A DNA stretch of 64,000 bases, taken from Bacillota bacterium (GTDB taxonomy: Bacteria; Bacillota; Sulfobacillia; Symbiobacteriales; ZC4RG38). The notes beneath the pieces are model-generated. The model saw only the letters and a program-made list of their open reading frames with translations, did not search any database and had not been told where the DNA came from. The stretch covers positions 1-64,000 of the forward strand of contig JAKKUO010000002.1 of the NCBI GenBank assembly GCA_021890795.1, written 5' to 3'. Position 1 is the first letter of the stretch. The number at the start of each line of letters is the position of its first letter. This document shows positions 3,848-8,851 of this stretch, in pieces. A program made the position numbers and the translations under genes.

Positions 3848-4840
3848 CTACCCGCCGGCGTACCGGAGCAAGGCCTGGGCCTCCGGGGTGGTGTGGAGCA
3901 GGTCGTTCAGGGCCCGGGCGAGGAGCCGGGCCATGGCGTCGATCAGGTCGTCGATCTCCTTCGGGGTGACCACCAGGTCTCCCACCTCCGGCCGGAGCAC
4001 CTCCTGGATCAGCCGGCGCCGCTCCTCGGGCCCGAACTGGGCCATCAGGTCGAAAAAGGGGCTCTTCCCCTTCATCTCCCGGGCCAGGAGGTCCAGGGTG
4101 TCGAAGGCGACCGTCGCGGCGTGGACCACCGTGGGCACGCCGATGGCCACCACCGGGATCCCCAGGGTCTCCCGGGTGAGCCCGAGGCGGGCATTCCCCA
4201 GCCCGCTCCCGGGCTGGATGCCCGTGTCCGCCATCTGGATGGTGGTGCCCAGCCGTCCGATGCTCCGGGCCGCCAGGGCGTCGATCACCACCACCCGGTC
4301 CGGCCGCATGTGCTGGACCACCCCCCGGACCACTTCGCCGGTCTCCAGGCCGGTGGTGCCGAGGACCCCCGGGGCGATGGCCGCCACCGGCCGCAGGGTC
4401 CCCTCCTGCCCGGGAGGCATGTAGGCCTTCAGGTGCCGGGTGACCAGGATCCGCCGGACCGTCCGGGGGCCCAGGGCGTCGGGGGTCGCCTGGGCGTTGC
4501 CCAGCCCCACCACCAGGACGCTGGTCTCGGGCCGGAGGTCCAGCAGCCCCGCCAGTTCCCGGGTGAGGGCGGCCCGGACCGCCTCCTGCAGCTCCGGGTC
4601 CCGGTCCCGGAGCCCCGGGGCCTCCAGGGTGATGTACCGGCCCTGGGCTTTGCCGAGGGCCGCTTCCCCTTCCGGGGAGAAGACCTCCACCCGGGCGATG
4701 CGAAGCCCCGGCGCCTGGCTCTCTTCCATCCGCACCCCGGGGACCTCGCCGCCGGAGGCGCCCCGGAGGGCCGCCGTTGCCTCCAGGGCGAGGTCGGTGT
4801 AGGGCTGTTCCCATCGGTTCTGCCACGGGTCCTGCGCCAC
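3848..4840 (-). CDS. gpr: Germination protease (spore protease GPR)
   Basis: Endoprotease that starts degradation of small acid-soluble proteins (SASPs) when spores germinate; made as a zymogen in the forespore. The 330-residue protein shows the family pattern: a short N-terminal pro-region with TDLALEA at residues 15-21 (resembling the processing region of the family), VLVVGLGNAQATPDALGPRT, a LVTRHL segment, then PGVLGTTGLETGE and VVVIDALAARS. The GTG start is preceded by GGGAGGTGAG. The gene stands alone on the minus strand between two plus-strand units. It is the clearest sign in the window that the organism makes spores. Confidence 0.93.
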   Translation of the reverse strand: MAQDPWQNRWEQPYTDLALEATAALRGASGGEVPGVRMEESQAPGLRIARVEVFSPEGEAALGKAQGRYITLEAPGLRDRDPELQEAVRAALTRELAGLLDLRPETSVLVVGLGNAQATPDALGPRTVRRILVTRHLKAYMPPGQEGTLRPVAAIAPGVLGTTGLETGEVVRGVVQHMRPDRVVVIDALAARSIGRLGTTIQMADTGIQPGSGLGNARLGLTRETLGIPVVAIGVPTVVHAATVAFDTLDLLAREMKGKSPFFDLMAQFGPEERRRLIQEVLRPEVGDLVVTPKEIDDLIDAMARLLARALNDLLHTTPEAQALLRYAGG

Positions 4841-5012: not shown

Positions 5013-5936
5013 GTGGTGGTTCTGGCGCACGAGGCGGGCGCGGGTACCTCCCGCCGGGAGCCCCGGTACATCGACCTGGGGGAGCGGGGCATCTACCACA
5101 CCGACAACCGGCTCAATGACCTGACCGGCAAGGAGTGGGTCTTTGCCACCCGGTCGGTCATCAACATGTCCTTCCCGCCGTCGCTGCAGTTCGAGCTCCG
5201 GAGCCAGCACGGCGGCCAGAAGCCGCCGGAGCTTTGCGCCTACCTGATCCGGATCTTCACCAAGAAGGGGCAGCGGGTGCTGGACCCCTTCGCCGGAGTG
5301 GGGGGCACCCTGCTGGGGGCGAGCCTGGCGGAGCGGCAGGCCGAGGGAATCGAGATCAACCCCCGGTGGGTCCGGATCTACCACGAGGTCTGCCGCCGGG
5401 AGGGGATCCCGCCCCAGCCCCTCCATGTGGGCGATGCCCGGGAGGTGCTGCCCACCCTGGAGGGGCCCTTCGACTTCCTCCTCACCGACGTGCCCTACTG
5501 GGACATGGACGTGCGCCGGCGATCCACCGGCAAGTTCAAGCGGGTGGGGATGCCGGCCCGGGAGCGGCGGCGGTCCAAGCTGCGGCCCTTCCACGAATTG
5601 GACCCCGAGGATGCCGCAGCCGGGGAGTGCACTCCCCAGCCCCTCCGGTCGGAGGCGGAATGGCTCGACCTGCTCCGGACAGTCTTCGCCCTGGCCCGGC
5701 CGCTCCTCAAGCCCCGGGCGTACCTCGCGGTCTTCATCGGCGACATGTACCACTCCGGCCGGTTCCACCCCCTCTCCCACCGGGTGACCGAAGTGCTCTG
5801 CGACCTGGGCTACACCATGAAGGCCAACCTGATCTGGTACGACGTGAGCAAGAGCCTCCACGTCTACGGTTACCGCTACGAGTTCATCCCCAGCATGGTC
5901 CACCAGAACATCCTGGTCTTCCGCAACGAGATCTGA
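5013..5936 (+). CDS. DNA methyltransferase (N4-cytosine/N6-adenine type)
   Basis: A predicted amino-methyltransferase of 307 residues acting on DNA with S-adenosylmethionine. The AdoMet-binding segment VLDPFAGVGGT starts at residue 89, preceded by HGGQKPPELCAYLIR (motif X-like) and followed by GIEINP. The catalytic motif is TDVPYW at 158-163, with Val where most family members have the first Pro of (D/N/S)PPY. The C terminus ends NILVFRNEI. AdoMet region before catalytic motif is the opposite of the common beta order. The GTG start at 5013 sits in a GTG run; the exact start is uncertain. A second methyltransferase follows after 17 bases and no nuclease gene is next to it. Substrate and recognition site cannot be read; RNA as target is less likely. 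Confidence 0.8.
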   Translation: MVVLAHEAGAGTSRREPRYIDLGERGIYHTDNRLNDLTGKEWVFATRSVINMSFPPSLQFELRSQHGGQKPPELCAYLIRIFTKKGQRVLDPFAGVGGTLLGASLAERQAEGIEINPRWVRIYHEVCRREGIPPQPLHVGDAREVLPTLEGPFDFLLTDVPYWDMDVRRRSTGKFKRVGMPARERRRSKLRPFHELDPEDAAAGECTPQPLRSEAEWLDLLRTVFALARPLLKPRAYLAVFIGDMYHSGRFHPLSHRVTEVLCDLGYTMKANLIWYDVSKSLHVYGYRYEFIPSMVHQNILVFRNEI

Positions 5937-5953
5937 CGGCAGGAGGGGCTGCG

Positions 5954-7027
5954 TTGGCTGGGTCGCTGCCGCCTGCGGACCTCAGGCCGGTCTACATCCA
6001 CAACCGCAAGTTCATCGGCTCCAAGCAGAACCTCTTGGATTTCATCGGCGGTGTCATCTCGGCCCGGGCCCCGGAGGCCCGGACGGCGGCGGATCTCTTT
6101 GCCGGCAGCGGGGTGGTCGCGGACTACCTGGCCCAGCGGGGGCTGCGGGTGGTGGCCGCCGACCACCTCTTCTGTAACTACGTGCCGGTCCGGGCCTTCC
6201 TGGCCACCCCGCCCGGGGCGGTGGACCCGGAGCGGCTCGGGCGGCTTCTCCGGGAACTCAACGCCCTCCCCGGCCGGCAGGGGTACGCCTGGACCCACTA
6301 CGGAGGCACCTACTTCACCCACGAGAACGCGGCCCGGATCGACGCGATCCGGGACCAGATCGCGCATTGGCAGGAGACCGGGGCGATCGGCGAGGCGGAG
6401 GCGATGCTGCTCCTCACCAGCCTCCTGTACGCGGCGGACAAGGTGGCCAACACCTGCGGGCAGTACGATGCGTACCTCAAGCACCTGGGCCGGGAGCCCT
6501 ACGCCCCGGACGGCACCCACCTGGTGGACGCCAGCGCCTACCGCCCCCTGGAGCTGGGCTGGCCCATGTACCGGCCCGACGGCGACCGGCACCGGGTCTA
6601 TCTGGCCGACGCCAACCAGCTGGTCCGGGAGGTGGAGGTGGACCTCCTCTACCTGGACCCGCCCTACAACACCCGGCAGTACGTGGACAACTACCACGTG
6701 CTGGAGAACCTGGCCCGGTGGGAAAAGCCCCCTCTCCGGGGCAAGACCCGGAAGTTCGACCGGACCGGGCTGAAAAGCCCCTACTCCAGCCGGACCCGGG
6801 CGGCCGCGGCCCTGGCGGACCTGGTCCGGGCGGCCCGGTGCCGGCACATCCTCCTCAGTTACTCCAGCGACGGGATCATCCCCCCGGCGGAGATCGTGGC
6901 CATTCTCGCTACCCGGGGGCCGGTGGAGGTTTTCGAGCACCCCTACCGCATCTTCGGCAACGGCGCCGGCCGCTCCCGGCGGCGGCCGGTGGTGGAACGG
7001 ATCTTCTACTGCCGGGTACAGGACTAA
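5954..7027 (+). CDS. DNA adenine methyltransferase (D12-like class)
   Basis: Predicted N6-adenine DNA methyltransferase, 357 residues. The N terminus has the D12-class signature KFIGSKQNLLDFI (about 19-31), the AdoMet loop FAGSG is at 49-53, and the catalytic DPPY is at 235-238 within LLYLDPPYNTRQY. The TTG start at 5954 is chosen because AGGAGGGG stands seven bases upstream and the FIGSK motif then falls at the usual distance from the N terminus; a frame open far upstream is a shadow of the previous gene. It forms a two-gene unit with the preceding methyltransferase. Two neighbouring methylases of different class could serve an asymmetric site or act as solitary epigenetic regulators; no restriction endonuclease is visible in the window. 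Confidence 0.87.
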   Translation: MAGSLPPADLRPVYIHNRKFIGSKQNLLDFIGGVISARAPEARTAADLFAGSGVVADYLAQRGLRVVAADHLFCNYVPVRAFLATPPGAVDPERLGRLLRELNALPGRQGYAWTHYGGTYFTHENAARIDAIRDQIAHWQETGAIGEAEAMLLLTSLLYAADKVANTCGQYDAYLKHLGREPYAPDGTHLVDASAYRPLELGWPMYRPDGDRHRVYLADANQLVREVEVDLLYLDPPYNTRQYVDNYHVLENLARWEKPPLRGKTRKFDRTGLKSPYSSRTRAAAALADLVRAARCRHILLSYSSDGIIPPAEIVAILATRGPVEVFEHPYRIFGNGAGRSRRRPVVERIFYCRVQD

Positions 7028-7145: not shown

Positions 7146-8309
7146 GTGGTGCTGCGGGTGTACAGAGTCTCGGTCTCAGCGCTGAAGCCCGGGATGCGCA
7201 TCGGCCGGTCGGTGGTGGATGTCACCGGCCGGATCCTGCTGACGGCTGGCACGGTGCTCAAGCCCAGTTACATCCAGTACCTGAAGCAGCGGGGGATCCC
7301 GGCGGTCTACGTCATCAACGAGCTGGCCCCGGACGTCAGCCTCCCCGAAGTGGTCTCCCCGGAGACCCGGACCCGGCTGGCCGCTGAACTGAACCGGGCG
7401 GTGGCGGAGCTGCGGGAGGTGATGGCGACCCGGGGGACGGCGTCCCTCCGCAGTTGGGCGAACGCACAGCTCTCCCGGGTCCGGGAGGCCGTCGCCGGGG
7501 TGGTGGACGAGATCCTCCGGCAGCCCCAGGCGGTTTTCCACCTCCAGGAGATCCGGACTCACGACGACTATACCCTGCAGCACTCGGTAGACGTCTGCAT
7601 CCTCAGCGTGCTGATCGGCGTCAGCCTGGGCTACGACGAGCGGCAGCTGCGGGACCTTGGCCTCGGCGCGGTCCTCCACGACATCGGGAAGGTGACCATC
7701 CCCGAGGCGATCCTGAAAAAGCCCGGCCCCCTCACCGCCGAGGAGAGGGCGGAGATACAGAAGCACACCACCCGGGGATTCGAGATCCTGATGCACTGCG
7801 GGGAGTTCAGCTTTCACGTGGCCCATGTGGCCTACCAGCACCACGAGCGCTGGTGCGGCGGCGGGTACCCCCGGGGGCTGAAGGGGCCGGAGATCCACGA
7901 ACTGGCCCGGGTGGTCGCGGTGGCCGACGTCTACGACGCCATGACCTCGGACCGGGTCTACCGGCCCGGCTACCCGCCGGAGCGGGCCCTCCGGAACATG
8001 CTGGAGGTGGTCCCGGACTGGTTTGATCCCCGGGTGCTGGCTGCCCTGGTGGAGAACGTGGCCATCTACCCGGTGGGGACCCTGGTCGAGCTCAACACCG
8101 GCGAGACGGCCGTGGTCACCGGGGTGGTGAAGGGCCAGGCCGCCCGGCCCCGGGTCCGGGTCCTCCGGGATCCCGCCGGCCGGCCGGTGCGGGAGCCGTG
8201 GGAGGTGGACCTGGCCGCCGATCCTACCTATTGGATCGTCCGCACCTTCGCCGAGGTGCCGCCCGCCCTGGCGCCGGAACTGCAGGAAGCGGTCGGGATG
8301 ATGGACTGA
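7146..8309 (+). CDS. HD-GYP domain protein, probable cyclic-di-GMP phosphodiesterase
   Basis: Predicted hydrolase of the second messenger cyclic di-GMP, 387 residues. The N-terminal third resembles the small domain often found before HD-GYP (SALKPGMRIGRSVVD; about 1-70), followed by a helical linker. The HD-GYP core has HDIGK at 178-182, HHE at 232-234 and GYP at 240-242, so all hallmark metal-binding and signature residues are present and the enzyme should be active. The C-terminal 90 residues form a small additional region with an LNTGETAVV strand. No receiver, PAS or membrane segment is seen. The GTG start at 7146 has only a weak ribosome binding site. It is convergent with a CheX-like gene; both suggest links to motility signalling. 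Confidence 0.9.
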   Translation: MVLRVYRVSVSALKPGMRIGRSVVDVTGRILLTAGTVLKPSYIQYLKQRGIPAVYVINELAPDVSLPEVVSPETRTRLAAELNRAVAELREVMATRGTASLRSWANAQLSRVREAVAGVVDEILRQPQAVFHLQEIRTHDDYTLQHSVDVCILSVLIGVSLGYDERQLRDLGLGAVLHDIGKVTIPEAILKKPGPLTAEERAEIQKHTTRGFEILMHCGEFSFHVAHVAYQHHERWCGGGYPRGLKGPEIHELARVVAVADVYDAMTSDRVYRPGYPPERALRNMLEVVPDWFDPRVLAALVENVAIYPVGTLVELNTGETAVVTGVVKGQAARPRVRVLRDPAGRPVREPWEVDLAADPTYWIVRTFAEVPPALAPELQEAVGMMD

Positions 8310-8332
8310 TGCCGGGATCCGGCAAAGAATAC

Positions 8333-8362
8333 GGCGGGTTCCCGCCTGGGCGGGAACCCGCC
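8333..8362. terminator. Bidirectional hairpin between HD-GYP gene and cheX-like gene
   Basis: GGCGGGTTCCCGCC (8333-8346) and GGCGGGAACCCGCC (8349-8362) form a perfect 14-base-pair stem between two convergent genes. On the minus strand a T-rich stretch (ATTCTTTG) follows; on the plus strand the T-run is poor. Confidence 0.75.
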
Positions 8363-8386
8363 TGCTATCCTTCATCACGAACTCGA

Positions 8387-8851
8387 TCACGAACTCTCCT
8401 GCAGGGCGACGTCCAGCCGGATCTCCCCGAGGGAGGTCTGCAGGGGGATGCGGATCCGGGGGATCCCCAGGGTGCTGAAGTAGGCGCCTTTCCCCACCAT
8501 CACCGACGGCGGGGTCAGGTCGCAGGTGTAGCCCTGCTCGCTGAGGGCCATCAGCGCCCGTCCGGTGACCACGTTGCCCAGCTCCGCCACTGCGGAGAGC
8601 ACCAGGTCGTCCAGCGTCGCAAAGGGCATGCCGGCCATCCGGGAGGCGAGGGCCAGGGCCGTCTCCCGGCTCATCCCGAAGAGCACGAGCCCCCGGGGGT
8701 TGCCCACCGCACCCAGAAAGACCGTTACCTCGCTGTCCAGGGTGGGGTCGATGGTGGCCGTCAGGGCTCCCCGGTGGACCGAATCCTTTATCTCACAGCG
8801 GAGGGTCTCCACCGCTGCCCGGAAGAACGCGTTCAGGACTTCCGCTTTCAT
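8387..8851 (-). CDS. cheX: CheX-like chemotaxis phosphatase family protein
   Basis: A 154-residue protein of the CheC/CheX/FliY superfamily, whose members dephosphorylate CheY-P and so reset chemotactic signalling. The family helix SAVAELGNVVTG carries the paired Glu90 and Asn93 that serve as catalytic residues in CheX and CheC. Length and single motif fit CheX rather than CheC, which has two. It is transcribed alone from its own promoter on the minus strand, far from the flagellar operon further right, and converges on the HD-GYP gene. A role in c-di-GMP or other receiver signalling instead of CheY is possible. Confidence 0.82.
   Translation of the reverse strand: MKAEVLNAFFRAAVETLRCEIKDSVHRGALTATIDPTLDSEVTVFLGAVGNPRGLVLFGMSRETALALASRMAGMPFATLDDLVLSAVAELGNVVTGRALMALSEQGYTCDLTPPSVMVGKGAYFSTLGIPRIRIPLQTSLGEIRLDVALQESS

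Follow-up and report, generated by a model that had tools for sequence, protein, structure and literature searches.

The window, a stretch of 64,000 nucleotides from a member of the order Symbiobacteriales, encodes two adjacent DNA methyltransferases, here called M1 and M2 (Table 1). Both open reading frames had been predicted earlier and were confirmed as intact genes, M1 running from a GTG start to a TGA stop codon (307 aa) and M2 from TTG to TAA (357 aa). They lie on the same strand with a gap of 17 bases, the arrangement of a two-gene operon, and an AGGAGG sequence located a few bases 5' of the TTG of M2 provides a good ribosome-binding site. Scans for promoters and terminators were uninformative. 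The neighbours of the pair are gpr, an HD-GYP gene, a CheX gene and coaD, and no nuclease gene adjoins M1-M2 at this locus. Profile matches of the neighbouring genes thereby bear out the earlier description of a pair standing between gpr and an HD-GYP gene without an adjoining endonuclease. The HD-GYP and CheX genes (window 7146-8851) separate M2 from the coaD region.

Table 1. The M1-M2 unit and its flanking genes, in window coordinates.
Feature	Position	Strand	Evidence
M1, N6_N4-class DNA methyltransferase	5013..5936	+	Pfam N6_N4_Mtase, PADLOC PDLC03284, AlphaFold
M1/M2 spacer with AGGAGG ribosome-binding site	5937..5953	+	Read directly in the sequence
M2, D12-class N6-adenine DNA methyltransferase	5954..7027	+	Pfam MethyltransfD12, PADLOC MTase_II, AlphaFold
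gpr (germination protease), divergent gene next to M1, marker of the conserved locus, outside the unit	3848..4840	-	TIGR01441 1.3e-112
HD-GYP phosphodiesterase-type gene, downstream of M2, outside the unit	7146..8309	+	Pfam HD_5 4e-34

The identification of M2 as a D12 adenine methylase with FAGSG and DPPY, made in the original prediction, is confirmed by its match to Pfam MethyltransfD12 (3.3e-31), and it also matches PADLOC MTase_II (5.8e-64). The FAGSG and DPPYNTRQY motifs are those expected of the D12 class (FxGxG and DPPY), and DPPY and RQY are invariant among 29 M2 homologues. The AlphaFold model of M2 has a pLDDT of 93, with Dam from E. coli as its best solved match. Class and DPPY motif together make a strong case for m6A as the predicted product of M2.

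M1 matches Pfam N6_N4_Mtase (1.2e-18) and, over nearly its full length (residues 18-306), the PADLOC Type II methyltransferase model PDLC03284 (8.2e-71). Its AdoMet motif, DPFAGVGG (residues 91-98), precedes the catalytic motif TDVPYW (residues 158-163), the order that had been read from the sequence before. This motif order fits the N6_N4 class, and the catalytic motif is a family-wide TDV/IPY variant of (D/N/S)PP(Y/F/W). The original prediction had drawn attention to the Val of TDVPYW as an oddity, an emphasis that now appears misplaced, as Val or Ile at this position is a trait of the family: TDV/IP[YF] followed by W, F or Y occurs in 92 of 97 extracted M1 matches, some of which are the same gene fetched twice. 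In an alignment of 42 homologue rows T158, D159 and P161 are invariant, and a sister group of the same class (L009-L011) has plain DPPY. A structure prediction, proposed earlier as a check on M1, gave a class I methyltransferase core (AlphaFold, pLDDT 79), in which a loop at about residues 161-210 is modelled with low confidence. The part of this loop that follows TDVPYW, residues 161-200, is likely the target-recognition region.

A Foldseek search with the M1 model placed TrmN and Trm11-type RNA m2G methyltransferases, which have the same motif order, near the top. This would be expected if the substrate of M1 were an RNA base and not DNA. However, TM-scores against the RNA enzymes reach only 0.4-0.5, the DNA enzyme M.BseCI is listed as well, the sequence matches of M1 are DNA methyltransferases, and its orthologues are found in operons with a two-site nuclease (see below). 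We consider an activity on RNA extremely unlikely. Among DNA products, adenine is favoured as the target of M1 because the Asp of TDxPY is invariant (DPPY-type rather than SPPY-type); we predict with moderate confidence that M1 forms m6A, with m4C as the alternative. The haloarchaeal CTAG enzyme Zim was considered as a counterpart of M1 and dropped, as Zim has been described as a beta-type m4C enzyme (PMC6606915) and the motif order of M1 differs. The window's genome contains a second, distant N6_N4-type match (G000:C63:48799-49062; 36% over 92 residues, in a 421-aa frame).

Homologues of M1 were found in seven of the eight genomes of the order that were searched, the remaining genome being only 77% complete, and M2 directly follows M1 in all seven. 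The pair shows the conservation within a taxon expected of solitary methyltransferases, at a syntenic position in those 7/8 genomes. A divergent gpr lies beside M1 in every locus of the order that was checked, and coaD is located downstream of the pair in all loci long enough to tell. Outside the window's genus rsmD stands just before coaD, and sepM follows coaD in most loci of the order. The HD-GYP gene is present at the locus in the window's family, including genome G002, and none turned up when the syntenic loci of the other family were checked. Compared with a congener, dN/dS is 0.056 for M1, 0.134 for M2 and 0.191 for gpr; values against G002 and G003, where synonymous sites are nearly saturated, are indicative only. 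In the M1 tree the order forms a clade with a support of 99, within which one genome (L115) falls among the other family with a support of 91. The M2 tree recovers the order clade at 98/91 and separates the two host families with full support. The pair has been inherited vertically in this order, under purifying selection.

Relatives elsewhere were studied in a biased sample, the best 80 of 268 loci from a genome scan. In 19 loci M1 and M2 are separated by a nuclease gene, here called R, which in most cases overlaps or directly adjoins the two; in one of them, L065, the contig ends before M2. These loci are from Clostridia, Bacilli, Omnitrophota, Elusimicrobia, Patescibacteria, Alphaproteobacteria, Bacteroidota and others. 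R matches PADLOC models of Type II nicking and restriction endonucleases, including one named "Type II nicking endonuclease". Every large R protein contains PD (or PE)...E-X12-QR, and a second site, D...E(A/G)K (ESK in two), is found in the C-terminal part of R; in L056, L072 and L078 this second site is encoded on a separate protein of 200-220 aa, and in L071 the simple pattern used for it picked another stretch. Judged by these motifs, the organisation of R is that of the BtsI/BsrDI/BsmI/BsrI (Type IIS/IIT) enzymes. The E-X12-QR signature of this nuclease family was reportedly described by Xu et al. in 2007.

Nucleases of the BtsI/BsrDI/BsmI/BsrI group have two different catalytic sites, either in a single chain or divided between a large and a small subunit (PMC4081073, PMC2909958). 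In systems of the BtsI type each strand has its own methyltransferase, and the two enzymes may be separate or joined (PMC4081073; for BtsI, PMC2909958). The operons found here resemble those of BtsI, BsrDI, BsmI (Mva1269I) and BsrI in having two methyltransferases together with a two-site R, fused or split, and the kinship is drawn from the R signature and the PADLOC models, not from alignment to the named enzymes. Homologues of the window's methyltransferases flank R in Clostridia, Omnitrophota and others, whereas the two-site endonuclease itself is missing beside the window's pair. The pair differs further from the BtsI group in that no R is matched elsewhere in its genome and in its vertical inheritance at one locus, order-wide. 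A survey of neighbourhoods had been proposed earlier in order to see whether a nuclease ever accompanies homologous pairs. It does so regularly in other lineages, but none stands beside the pair in the window's order.

Because the pair regularly flanks a two-site nuclease elsewhere, we place its ancestry in a restriction-modification system. The genes might then be the decaying remains of such a system after recent loss of the nuclease, since the relatives are complete M1-R-M2 operons in which loss of R would leave the M1-M2 order seen here. This we regard as very improbable, given that the genes are intact, that their catalytic residues are invariant, and that they are under purifying selection and occupy one locus across two families. 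Because of this order-wide synteny and purifying selection the pair is better understood as a retained solitary unit. The original prediction had offered either a solitary methylation pair or the remains of a restriction system; each holds part of the answer, in the apparently solitary state of the pair and in its restriction ancestry (19 R-bearing loci), and the notion of decay does not stand in view of synteny and selection.

A search of 21 genomes with the PADLOC models PDLC03392 and PDLC03434 gave no match, and since the control genomes were silent too, we built our own R profile from 13 of the R proteins found here. This profile detected R in 4/4 control genomes known to carry it, and gave no match in 8/8 genomes of the order or in eight other genomes with the pair or M1 alone (Spirochaetota, one Firmicute and archaea). 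The window's genome, which is estimated to be 100% complete, matches none of the R models or R protein queries used, although a diverged nuclease could escape them.

One exception within the order is G003, where a 560-aa protein is homologous to the large R subunit of a Falkowbacteria locus, L040 (28% over 272 aa, E 1e-43). It is located 0.66 Mb from the M1-M2 pair of the same genome (L122:7995-10221; contig 1, ~912-914 kb). Its start is overlapped by a 185-aa ORF with D-x13-EAK, it lies downstream of an IS transposase gene, and neither an M1-type nor an M2-type methyltransferase is found beside it. The catalytic site is degenerate, with PD replaced by PT, E by T and QR by QI, and no homologue of this type was found in the seven other genomes of the order, the window's included. 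This protein could be what is left of the original nuclease or a partner that has moved away, or it could have no connection with the pair. The Falkowbacteria locus itself (L040:5983-10819) reads M2, a 420-aa protein, a 392-aa protein with PD...E-X12-QR, a 154-aa protein and M1. It is a nuclease-bearing member inside an otherwise solitary clade, its M2 belonging to the clade of the window's M2 (100/100). The 420-aa protein has weak matches to the REase_II and PDC-S11 models.

These observations bear on the possibility of a split system, in which the pair gives protection from a cognate nuclease whose gene lies at another place in the genome. There is precedent in Csp12AI of Clostridium sp. 12(A), whose active, FokI-like R lies 1.2 Mb from its M1/M2 (PMC4752239). 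Like the window's pair, the methyltransferases of Csp12AI are adjacent and have no nuclease beside them, and they serve an asymmetric site (PMC4752239), as the window's pair probably does; unlike the window's M1, both are FokI-like. The R homologue and adjoining D-x13-EAK ORF of G003, without a methyltransferase beside them, and the shared M2 clade of L040 and the window would also fit a split system. Against this, the G003 protein has degraded catalytic residues and lies downstream of a transposase gene, its type occurs in one of the eight genomes of the order only, and the window's genome matches no R model used. We hold a split system to be unlikely here, though it is a serious rival, and at least one species, G003, may have a displaced nuclease.

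Spirochaetota loci among the 80 have the reverse order, M2-M1, with a short gap in most, and no nuclease of the PD...E-X12-QR family was found in them. In two Spirochaetota M2 and M1 form one open frame, again with no nuclease (L036:1657-3666, 669 aa; L038:8756-10870, 704 aa). Long frames in L035 and L048 were at first taken for similar fusions and rejected, as they are in other reading frames; the only true single frames are L036 and L038. M1 without M2 or R, with a TDV/IPYW-type motif, is found in Asgard archaea (e.g. L046, L052-L055, L057-L064, L083, L086-L088) and in haloarchaea (L076, L084, L093-L111), and this lone archaeal M1 is conserved across Natrialbaceae and Lokiarchaeota.

The archaeal genes indicate that M1 can work alone, and M1 and M2 could accordingly be independent solitary enzymes that just happen to be neighbours, their targets being different palindromes or unrelated sites. 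We find this quite improbable: the two are neighbours in three arrangements (M1-M2, M2-M1 and M1-R-M2) and share one frame in the two Spirochaetota, and their trees broadly match, which fits a common target. Residues 161-180 of the M1 loop are 78% identical within the order and 56-65% identical in the Spirochaetota pairs, compared with 29% in the main group of R operons. This suggests that the solitary pairs share one specificity that sets them apart from most R-bearing operons. A common target of their own is probable for the solitary clade because the M1 loop is kept among solitary pairs and differs in most R operons.

Taken together, we think it likely that M1-M2 descends from an ancient Type IIS/IIT (BtsI/BsrDI/BsmI-like) restriction-modification system, whose modification half the order has kept as a solitary unit. 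By analogy, M1 and M2 would probably both methylate adenine at N6 and divide the two strands of a single asymmetric site between them; the common target, with one strand for each enzyme, is suggested because of the homology with M1-R-M2 operons of the BtsI type. Two m6A enzymes are plausible, because the sites of BtsI, BsrDI, BsmI and BsrI contain adenine on both strands and because MhoVII offers a precedent. In MhoVII of Mycoplasma hominis (GATG/CATC), a fused N6_N4-type M1 and D12 M2 accompany an R, and both methyltransferases were shown to make m6A (PMC12898733). As in the window, one enzyme is of the N6_N4 class and one of the D12 class, and those of MhoVII methylate adenine on one strand each of an asymmetric site. 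MhoVII differs in that its nuclease is active and in that its M1 has the beta order, with the catalytic motif before the AdoMet motif, whereas AdoMet comes first in the window's M1.

The genome would thus carry a mark on both strands, and no nuclease would be needed to maintain it. Its present-day role would be the marking of host DNA, for epigenetic regulation or as a permanent shield from a nuclease that recognises the same site, and not restriction; host DNA marking is the likely role because no nuclease was found with the pair. Orphan methyltransferases are common and often conserved, with 165 reported in one survey (PMC4752239). Like Dam, CcrM, the RAATTY family of Spirochaetaceae and others (PMC4752239), the window's pair is conserved across a taxon and appears to be solitary, without a nuclease partner. 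The best-known orphans, however, are single enzymes acting on palindromic sites, while the window has two classes that apparently act on one asymmetric site.

Less described is a solitary pair with one enzyme of each class that a whole order keeps at the same locus and that also occurs in another phylum, and no paper on methylation in Symbiobacterium was found in the literature searched. Regulatory orphan methyltransferases of the well-known kind act as single enzymes; if our reading is correct, a pair with a different enzyme for each strand of an asymmetric site would make strand-specific marks possible, and would clearly exemplify the conversion of a restriction system into a housekeeping one. 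A more speculative extension, which we hold to be rather unlikely, is that the pair is a domesticated, order-wide epigenetic writer, present also in Spirochaetota independently or by common descent, whose strand-distinguishable marks took on the control of genes or replication after the nuclease was lost, with the G003 homologue as its fossil. The set of lineages with R, without R, with fused genes and with M1 alone offers a test bed for modification genes that outlive their nuclease.

Mobile elements were encountered in a few places. On plasmids only three haloarchaeal relatives were found. The proteins encoded on the viral contig L125 are those of the Falkowbacteria locus, so that this contig is uninformative on phages. 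Two IMG/VR contigs classed as viral (L126:1853-3857 and L127:2416-4420) encode an M2-M1 pair (identity to M1, 40%) and, after it, a protein of 729 aa, and are possibly a phage-borne version of the pair.
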